Origin: Deltaproteobacteria bacterium | GTDB taxonomy: Bacteria; SAR324; XYD2-FULL-50-16 | Direction of reading: 5' to 3' | DNA: 64,000 nucleotides | Assembly: GCA_018657625.1 (NCBI GenBank) | Contig: JABHWU010000013.1 | Location: 1 to 64,000 of the forward strand | The notes under the pieces: model-generated | The model's database searches: none | What the model was told of the DNA's origin: nothing | What the model saw: only the letters and a program-made list of their open reading frames with translations | Program-made: the position numbers and the translations under genes | Part shown: piece after piece, positions 24,089 through 53,953 of the stretch | How positions within the stretch are numbered: the first letter of the stretch is position 1 | How the letters are laid out: each line of letters opens with the position of its first letter

Positions 24089-24595
24089 ATGTCTGATTCA
24101 AAACCAATTTCACTGGATCGTTTTCGGGAAAAAAAGAAAAAAGAAGCGGCAGAAAAAAAACATCCCGGAATTATGGTTTGGCTATATTGCCCAAAATGTC
24201 AAACGATCGAATACACTGAAGTAATAGCGCCAAGCGGTCGAACACATATGTGTGGGATGATCGTTGAAGAACGAGAGGTGGAATTAGATTTAAGAGCAGA
24301 ATTTACAATCGTTTTATATAATCTAAAGATCATAGATGAACTGATCAAAGGAAATCAGGCATCTAAAATCAGAAAGCTTTTTGCCAAAACACTGGATAAA
24401 GCTTTGTTTAAGTTAAAAAAATCGGAAGAGTTATATTTAGAACGCATGGGAATTAAAAATATCGTTCCTTATGAAGGCGATATAGAGGAGTTAAAAGCTA
24501 AGCTTCCGATTAAAGAAACAAATCAATTGGGACTTTGGATATCAGATTTTAGATATAAACCTGAAGAACGTTTTAAGCAAAAATTAGATGGATAA
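24089..24595 (+). CDS. Small zinc-ribbon-like protein of unknown function
   Basis: This 168-residue protein opens with a basic segment (FREKKKKEAAEKK). A probable zinc knuckle follows (WLYCPKCQTIEY ... RTHMCGM), with three cysteines and a histidine. The remainder is charged and helical (about residues 65-135), with a tail ending LWISDFRYKPEERFKQ. I do not recognise the family. It lies 40 bp upstream of a CheX-like gene and is probably cotranscribed with it. Confidence 0.6.
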   Translation: MSDSKPISLDRFREKKKKEAAEKKHPGIMVWLYCPKCQTIEYTEVIAPSGRTHMCGMIVEEREVELDLRAEFTIVLYNLKIIDELIKGNQASKIRKLFAKTLDKALFKLKKSEELYLERMGIKNIVPYEGDIEELKAKLPIKETNQLGLWISDFRYKPEERFKQKLDG

Positions 24596-24635: not shown

Positions 24636-25406
24636 ATGATAAGGGCTACAAACACACTAAATTCGATCGCACGTATATTCTGCGATGCAACCAAGGAAGT
24701 TTTAGGGACCAGCACTGGAAAAGAAGTTAGCTTCGCAAATACGATTCAAAAAATTCCCCTCGTACATTTAAGACCTGAAATTGGTTGTTTTGTCCTGTTT
24801 AACGGCGATTATTCAGGTATCATGATTATGAATTTTTCGGCAAAAGCAGCGATGGAAATTTATCGTAATCAAATGTTGACCATGGGTCTACCAGAAGAGG
24901 ATCTGGCAACTGAATACACAGCGGATGATGTTGTCGATAATATTGGCGAAACGATTAACCAGATTATTGGAAGTGTCAGAAGAAAAATTGAAGGTATCTA
25001 TGGTCTGGTCTCTTCTAACACCCAACCAAAAGCGATTGCATTAACAACTTCTATTATTTTAACTATTGATGCCCATGATATTGAAAAAGAATTGTGTCGA
25101 AGATTATCGTTTAAAATCGGAGGACACTCTTTTCATATTGAGCTTTCCATGGAGAAAACAGAGTTTGTTTCTATCGATGGAAAGGACATTCATAATCAGG
25201 GAAGCCAGGCAGGGGTGGAAAAAGATCAGTATGAAACGATTCTGAAGGCTGAACAGGCAAAAGCAAATGTGGGTAAAGCCGGCAATGATCAAAATCTGGA
25301 TTTTGAGGCACTAGTAAATGCTAACAAAACAGAAGAAAGTCCTGATAAATCTGTATCTAATGACAATTTGGATTTTGAGGCACTACTCAAACAAAATAAG
25401 GAATAG
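24636..25406 (+). CDS. CheX-like phosphatase (DUF3334-like) with duplicated C-terminal FEAL motifs
   Basis: The first ~185 residues form a CheX/CheC-like domain. GETINQIIG carries E105 and N108, the ExxN pair that CheX and CheC use to dephosphorylate CheY-P. The overall pattern (MIRATNTLNSIARIFCDATKEVL) fits the uncharacterised DUF3334 family as I recall it. The C-terminal tail is unstructured and repeats a short motif, NLDFEALV (residues 220-227) and NLDFEALL (244-251), similar to the EIDALL peptide with which FliM and FliY dock CheY. A strong AAAGGAG site supports the start. The role is probably in phosphorelay control, but the partner is unknown. Confidence 0.72.
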   Translation: MIRATNTLNSIARIFCDATKEVLGTSTGKEVSFANTIQKIPLVHLRPEIGCFVLFNGDYSGIMIMNFSAKAAMEIYRNQMLTMGLPEEDLATEYTADDVVDNIGETINQIIGSVRRKIEGIYGLVSSNTQPKAIALTTSIILTIDAHDIEKELCRRLSFKIGGHSFHIELSMEKTEFVSIDGKDIHNQGSQAGVEKDQYETILKAEQAKANVGKAGNDQNLDFEALVNANKTEESPDKSVSNDNLDFEALLKQNKE

Positions 25407-32459: not shown

Positions 32460-32942
32460 TTACCCAGTGATCTTGTTGGATTCAAAACAGGCTTCGATAA
32501 AATATTCTCCACCCGGGGTTTTAAAAGGAATAACAATGATTCGCCCCTGCACAAAATGCAGGATTTCATGATTATTTCCATTGGAAGTAACAGGAATTCC
32601 GGCAGCAAAACGAAAACCTCTTTTGGCCAGCTCCCTTCTCGTTTCACCGCTGACCATATTCACCAACTCTCCGACCATGTCCACCACTTCATGATTGATA
32701 TCCGTAAAATCATCTCCAAACATCTGTTTAGCAATCGCTAAAATACTGTCTTTCTTGAAACTTAAAGCAATGCTGCCTCTTCCTTCACCGGTCAACTCAA
32801 TAACAGCTGAAATATCTCCTAACCCACGACGACTATCAACGTCTTTTAAAAAAGGTTTGCCGGCTTTTGATTCAGTAAAAGCCATAGTATGTAGTACTTT
32901 TTGGGTAGCGGCGATAAAAGGATTGATATATTCAACTCGCAT
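32460..32942 (-). CDS. cheX: Chemotaxis phosphatase CheX
   Basis: This 160-residue protein matches CheX throughout: EYINPFIAATQKVLHTMAF, SAVIELTGEGRGSIALSF and MVGELVNMVSGETRRELAKRG. The catalytic pair is E92 and N95. CheX dephosphorylates CheY-P in chemotaxis or related phosphorelays. No chemotaxis genes adjoin it. Together with the CheX-like protein at 24.6 kb and FliN at 53.4 kb it indicates a dispersed motility regulon. Confidence 0.9.
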   Translation of the reverse strand: MRVEYINPFIAATQKVLHTMAFTESKAGKPFLKDVDSRRGLGDISAVIELTGEGRGSIALSFKKDSILAIAKQMFGDDFTDINHEVVDMVGELVNMVSGETRRELAKRGFRFAAGIPVTSNGNNHEILHFVQGRIIVIPFKTPGGEYFIEACFESNKITG

Positions 32943-53407: not shown

Positions 53408-53953
53408 ATGGCTGAAGGAGTTGATCCTTTTGAAGCCGCTATGGCTTCAATAGACGGAGATGGCGCAGACCAACCTGCAGAAAGTAAAACCCCGGTTGAA
53501 GCAACAGAAAAACCGGCAGCAGATCCATTTGATGCAGCATTAGGTGCCTTAGACAGTGAAGAAACAGGGACAACTGAAGCATTGGAAGGTGATGACCCTT
53601 TTGAGGCGGCTTTACAGGTTGCAAAAACTGAACATAGTGTCGCTGCGGCTCAAAAAACATCAGACAAAGATGGTGAACATCTGGATTTAGGTTTTTTATT
53701 GGATATCAAGTTGGAAGTTACTTTTGAAGTGGGTCGGGCTAAGATGTTTATCAGCGATTTGTTATCCCTAGGTCAGGGATCTGTCATTGAATTGCACCGA
53801 CTCGTAGGGGAAGAACTGGAGATATTTGTAAACGGCCATCTATTCGCCGTTGGAGAAGTTGTTGTCGTAAACGAAAAATTTGGCGGTCGCATCACTAAAA
53901 TTATCAGACCGGAAGAACGCATTCAAAGACTCGGAACAAACTATATAATGTAA
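53408..53953 (+). CDS. fliN: Flagellar motor switch protein FliN with three N-terminal DPFEAA motifs
   Basis: The C-terminal ~90 residues are the SpoA domain of FliN: LDLGFLLDIKLEVTFEVGRAKMFISDLLSLGQGSVIELHRLVGEELEIFVNGHLFAVGEVVVVNEKFGGRI. The N-terminal ~85 residues are an acidic, alanine-rich extension with three copies of a short motif: D6-PFEAAM, D39-PFDAAL and D63-PFEAAL. These resemble the CheY-docking peptide of FliM/FliY. FliN forms the lower C-ring of the flagellar motor. No other flagellar structural gene is in the window. A GAGG site supports the start. Confidence 0.9.
   Translation: MAEGVDPFEAAMASIDGDGADQPAESKTPVEATEKPAADPFDAALGALDSEETGTTEALEGDDPFEAALQVAKTEHSVAAAQKTSDKDGEHLDLGFLLDIKLEVTFEVGRAKMFISDLLSLGQGSVIELHRLVGEELEIFVNGHLFAVGEVVVVNEKFGGRITKIIRPEERIQRLGTNYIM

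Follow-up and report, generated by a model that had tools for sequence, protein, structure and literature searches.

A DUF3334 protein with a CheX-like core and docking-like tail motifs, and a FliN with repeated N-terminal motifs, in a bacterium of the SAR324 phylum

The DUF3334 gene and its CheX-like core

The window studied here is the complete stretch of 64,000 nucleotides (contig JABHWU010000013.1, positions 1 to 64,000) from a Deltaproteobacteria bacterium of the SAR324 lineage. It encodes a DUF3334 protein with two docking-like motifs in its C-terminal tail and, unlinked to it, a FliN with three repeated motifs in its N-terminus (Table 1).

Table 1. Positions of the genes, domains and motifs discussed in the text.
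Feature	Positions	Strand	Details
168-aa gene directly upstream of the DUF3334 gene	24089-24595	+	Cys-containing segments YCPKC and HMCG; no significant Pfam/NCBIfam match
DUF3334 / CheX-like protein	24636-25406	+	256 aa; PF11813 (2.2e-51) and PF13690 CheX
CheX-fold core, residues 1-178	24636-25169	+	AlphaFold2 pLDDT mostly >90; Foldseek match to CheX
E105-x-x-N108, catalytic pair on helix 97-122	24948-24959	+	invariant in 70 homologues
Acidic tail, residues 179-256	25170-25403	+	net charge -7; block mean pLDDT about 48-79; lacking in 33 of 70 homologues
Docking-like motif copy 1, NLDFEALV, residues 220-227	25293-25316	+	predicted short helix 223-229
Docking-like motif copy 2, NLDFEALL, residues 244-251, near C-terminus	25365-25388	+	predicted short helix 247-254; position conserved in orthologues
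FliN with repeated N-terminal motifs	53408-53953	+	181 aa; PF01052 1.4e-21; TIGR02480 above cut-off
FliN motif copy 1, DPFEAAM, residues 6-12	53423-53443	+	DPF at residue 6 in 10 of 10 family FliNs
FliN motif copy 2, DPFDAAL, residues 39-45	53522-53542	+	
FliN motif copy 3, DPFEAAL, residues 63-69	53594-53614	+	

The DUF3334 gene is present in a single copy in the genome. Its product reaches 175.3 bits with the Pfam profile PF11813 (DUF3334, cut-off 25.2) and, more weakly, also exceeds the cut-off of PF13690 CheX (37.5 bits against 27); both profiles are matched by all 60 members of the homologue alignment. The NCBIfam model CheX_Thtogales is not matched, and Pfam searches for the CheZ domain (PF04344) and the SPOA/FliN domain (PF01052) gave no match. 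DUF3334 is already a Pfam family, for which Pfam gives no function, and no paper naming it was found in a literature search that ran mostly without subscription papers and does not prove absence.

In the AlphaFold2 model the core is confident and contains a long helix bearing both E105 and N108. A PDB search with the sequence alone returned no useful match; a profile search did find CheX and aligned the GE..N stretch of the DUF3334 protein with the GE..N of CheX 3hm4. Foldseek matched the core to the same CheX structure (E 2e-12, TM 0.85 by target); its matches also include 3hzh, a CheX-CheY complex. E105 and N108 are invariant in 70 of 70 aligned homologues, tailed or tailless. The hydrolysis of CheY-P by CheX requires ExxN (PMC3510030). 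The model and these matches support the assignment of the core as a CheX-fold domain with the catalytic pair, and the CheX-like core with E105/N108 in the original prediction stands in this form.

The neighbours of the DUF3334 gene in the window are genes for a DUF350 protein, the 168-aa product and pseudopilin-like proteins. No che genes were recognised beside it in the window, nor in the recurrent neighbourhoods of its homologues, whose genes are housekeeping-like, and an operon with che genes was therefore rejected. Several loci of Thermodesulfobacteriota whose DUF3334 protein is tailed (L123, L125, L135, L136, L142 and others) have a common conserved upstream block, by eye dxr, rseP, tsaB and sfsA-like.

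Tail motifs among the DUF3334 homologues

AlphaFold2 models the tail of the DUF3334 protein with low confidence, and within it both motif segments as short helices; the two repeats of the original prediction are found at the residues it gave, 220-227 and 244-251. To look at their conservation we used 70 homologues, drawn from relatives of the window and from the genomes of GTDB species. Among relatives with a name, SAR324/Lambdaproteobacteria stand nearest; most of the wider set belongs to the Thermodesulfobacteriota (former Deltaproteobacteria). A longer tail is present in 37 of the 70 proteins, and the other 33 end at most 7 residues past the core. Because nearly half of the homologues thus do without a tail, docking would be inessential to the function of the core. 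Two genomes (G002, G005) harbour tailless DUF3334 paralogues (L016, L017) alongside a tailed one. On the tree of the cores three changes are needed to explain tail presence.

The strict motif [DE][IVF][DE][AS][LIM][LMFIV] occurs 35 times in the 37 tails, against 0.06 expected from composition-preserving shuffles (maximum 3 in 2000), with the reservation that the motif expressions were set or widened (I/V/F) after the sequences had been seen. When only 18 cluster representatives are counted, 22 strict motifs stand against 0.03 by shuffling, and the form known from the literature alone, [DEQ][IV]D[AD]LL, is found 7 times in the tails with 0.009 expected. In the orthologous tails the motif is thus several hundred times as frequent as in shuffled sequence. 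Its last copy begins 7-13 residues, most often 10, before the C-terminus, and the number of copies per tail varies from one to seven.

The conservation that the original prediction asked for is therefore found in the alignment of the orthologues, in many of which the motif closely matches the docking peptide of FliM or CheZ. The tails of two SAR324 genomes hold five and seven QPDIDALM-like units and end in SPSQADIDALFD or APSQSDIDALFD, which are of the FliM type (E. coli FliM: SILSQAEIDALLNG); among the homologues, the tail peptides SPSQADIDALFD and ISQDDIDSLFD come close to the SQAEIDALL of FliM. Tails from Thermodesulfobacteriota end in ASQDELDDLMAEFGLD, SQEELDQMMADLGL, QDEIDALLESIG or VDIDALLAEFG, near to the C-terminus of E. 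coli CheZ (ASQDQVDDLLDSLGF, taken from the genome record). The F-type form (DF[DE]AL), to which both copies in the window belong, is restricted to the clade of the window in the core tree.

FliN repeats and the distribution of the motif in the genome

The product of 53408-53953 carries the FliN C-terminal domain (TIGR02480, 92.0 bits against a cut-off of 84.05), and its three DPF motifs, all found in the N-terminus as originally claimed, precede this domain. The gene is flanked by a fumarase and a deaminase (ribD-like) gene and lies outside any flagellar operon; two more FliN-like ORFs (C51, C8) are without the DPF motif. Elsewhere in this genome (L025/L026, G000 C83:88099-89252) a divergent FliM-like ORF adjoins a FliN-domain ORF whose very long, acidic N-terminus has many repeats of the LDLDD type.

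A DPF copy is found at residue 6 in each of the ten FliNs read from the family of the window, which together hold 25 DPF-type copies, with 0.003 expected. FliNs from other families of the phylum carry DIDALL, DLDSLM, DLESML and similar repeats; one of them has a row of QSSIDALFDGAGG-like units after SQDDIDALL. Loose motifs number 39 in the FliN N-termini (in 16 of 28) against 1.8 expected, and by either pattern 26 of the 28 N-termini contain motif-like repeats. The forms DIDALL, DLDSLM, DLESML, DLEAAL and DPFEAAM make up a series of intermediates, and in three FliNs of the family DLEAAL or DLESAL adjoins the DPFEAAM copies, which makes it plausible to regard DPFEAAM as a diverged docking motif. 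The DPFxAA of FliN is tied to EIDALL only through these intermediate forms and through resemblance, and we would give about even chances that the repeats bind CheY. In the model of the Salmonella C-ring, which has 102 FliN, the FliN chain starts at residue 45, 59 or 63 (PMC11087270), so that a flexible N-terminal array on FliN is physically possible.

The genome was scanned with strict DNA patterns; the assembly, a MAG, is about 80% complete. The pattern D-x-F-[DE]-A-.-[FLIMV] gave 7 matches, three of them the FliN copies (3 in the reversed control), and D-[FI]-[DE]-A-[FLIMV]-[FLIMV] gave 12, two of them the tail copies of the DUF3334 protein (control 6). The remaining matches of both patterns fall within long ORFs that look folded or within very short ones. 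By these patterns the F-type motif in terminal, disordered-looking regions is limited to the DUF3334 protein and the FliN of 53408-53953, which is the outcome of the genome-wide search proposed with the original prediction. The canonical form [DE][IV][DE][AS]LL was found in a protein terminus in FliM only, very short ORFs aside.

The FliM of this genome has a canonical LSQNEVDALL (in MSQVLSQNEVDALLKG). The docking system had been predicted as not centred on FliM; in view of this canonical peptide that holds only in part, and docking at FliN and the DUF3334 protein would be additional to FliM and not a replacement. A motif-less FliM whose docking function moved elsewhere was rejected for the same reason. 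No match to CheZ was found in this 80% complete genome. We do not take a loss of CheZ as the driver, because the assembly is incomplete and 8 of 9 other genomes of the family that were searched possess CheZ.

At least two single-domain CheYs with conserved Y106/K109/K119 are encoded in the genome. By sequence, C120:90622, with 62% identity to E. coli CheY, and C8:139214, with 45%, are the best candidates for partners among the single-domain response regulators. The genome further has two additional CheX proteins and a single CheC-like ORF: a second, tailless CheX lies in the same window (32460-32942, minus strand; PF13690 9.3e-20) and a third on contig C102, and the CheC-like ORF of 204 aa (L230, G000 C110) adjoins a single-domain response regulator.

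Throughout the family of the window the CheZ C-termini and the FliM N-termini are of the I/V-type (e.g. SQDDVDALLTKFGF), and FliN and DUF3334 are of the F-type. This shift follows one tree split and is therefore not independent evidence. In genome G002 FliN and the DUF3334 tail share DPFAAAQAA, encoded by differing codons, which hints at a code common to the two proteins. They are not an obligate pair, because tailless DUF3334 homologues exist, and FliN repeats are present in G003 and G004 in which no tailed DUF3334 was detected; the FliN repeats of these genomes would therefore have a role of their own.

A putative tethered phosphatase and its alternatives

We favour, at a probability of about two thirds, the reading that the 24636-25406 protein is a CheX-class CheY-P phosphatase with a CheZ-like docking tail. 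As short helices, its two FliM/CheZ-type tail peptides would dock on phosphorylated CheY at the alpha4-beta5-alpha5 face, tethering would raise the local concentration of CheY-P, and E105 and N108 of the core would complete the active site and position the water hydrolysing the aspartyl phosphate. This would be the strategy of CheZ, a docking tail plus a catalytic body, realised on the unrelated CheX body. The repeated hooks of the tail, similar to those of the flagellar motor, probably catch CheY. One face of CheY is common to FliM and CheZ peptides (PMC3774744), and the site of the FliM peptide is the alpha4/alpha5 groove (PMC9126983). At the motor, the N-terminal repeats of FliN would capture this CheY-P or a related one, besides the single FliM site, and the phosphatase and the motor FliN may compete for the same CheY signal. 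Against docking speaks that the window's own family has the motif in a divergent form, the F-type (DFEAL, DPFEAAM), while the peptides of its FliM and CheZ are canonical.

CheX, CheZ, FliY and EIDALL are already known, and each resembles the DUF3334 protein in part. With CheX (PF13690; T. maritima 1xko, Desulfovibrio 3hm4, Borrelia CheX-CheY3 3hzh) it has the fold and the ExxN pair in common; however, the matched solved CheX chains comprise about 155 aa and leave no room for such a tail, whereas the DUF3334 core of about 180 aa is often followed by docking-like motifs. In FliY, a CheC-family phosphatase of the C-ring, a CheC/CheX-type domain is likewise joined to an EIDALL-type peptide, but in FliY the docking peptide is N-terminal and the SPOA/FliN domain C-terminal, while DUF3334 lacks the SPOA domain and carries its peptides C-terminally. 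CheZ bears a C-terminal CheY-docking peptide on a flexible tail, which some DUF3334 tails nearly match; it is nevertheless a different protein, with DxxxQ as its catalytic pair (PMC3510030) and, as stated, without a Pfam match in the DUF3334 protein, where several copies of the motif are possible. The EIDALL peptide of FliM belongs to the same motif class and is nearly identical in several DUF3334 homologues, but FliM has a single N-terminal copy, and here multiple copies occur on a phosphatase-like protein and on FliN.

It is possible, if doubtful, that only the DUF3334 tail docks CheY and that the DPFxAA repeats are an unrelated FliN-specific element, e.g. for export or for a C-ring partner, whose likeness is a coincidental convergence on short acidic helices. 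DPFEAAM indeed differs from EIDALL by the P before F and by A for L, a segment particular to E. coli FliN, DDLWAEAL, stands at a similar place, and both the repeats of G003 and G004 and the canonical FliM in the same genomes fit such an element. Yet in this region FliNs from other parts of the phylum have SQDDIDALL and QADIDALL along with graded intermediates, the DPFAAAQAA of G002 stands in both proteins with differing codons, and among the terminal regions of this genome the motif is confined to FliN and the DUF3334 protein. The tail itself might be an intramolecular or partner-binding helix, for autoinhibition, a dimer contact or localisation, with an incidental likeness to EIDALL. The existence of tailless homologues would agree with this, but we hold it to be quite improbable, as the match runs past the core motif (S-Q-x-x in FliM-like, AEFG/AELG in CheZ-like tails), the tails have anything from one to seven copies and, as in CheZ, one copy lies at the very C-terminus. 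Acidic tails rich in D, E, A and L could finally resemble the motif by chance; since shuffles preserving this composition yield 0.06 strict motifs where 35 are observed, and the motif is conserved across homologues, this explanation was rejected as hardly credible.

A further reading, rather unlikely in our opinion, takes the F-type motif as a separate code for one dedicated CheY paralogue, which FliN and the DUF3334 phosphatase would have in common and which would be kept apart from the canonical code of FliM and CheZ. The division of the family's proteins into F-type and I/V-type and the at least two motor-type CheYs of the genome argue for it; the shift, however, tracks a single tree split and counts as about one event, and the same pocket may simply accept F as well. 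Speculative, and unlikely to hold in full, is the wider proposal that the FliN of the SAR324 phylum is a polyvalent CheY antenna, each FliN bearing as many as about seven motifs, and that in the family of the window the docking code is split into a canonical one on FliM and CheZ and a private F-type one on FliN and DUF3334 for a dedicated CheY.

No relevant description of multi-copy CheY docking tails or motifs was found in our literature search, which covered mostly papers outside subscription and leaves absence unproven. With the favoured reading, that of a CheX-class phosphatase tethered by its tail, the uncharacterised Pfam family DUF3334 gains a specific, testable function, and a phosphatase of the CheX class would possess a tethering device known from CheZ and FliY. 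If FliN docks CheY via several copies, a motor with roughly 100 FliN would show hundreds of docking peptides as against about 34, and such a multivalent FliN would bear on the sensitivity of the motor to CheY-P and on the competition between phosphatase and motor.
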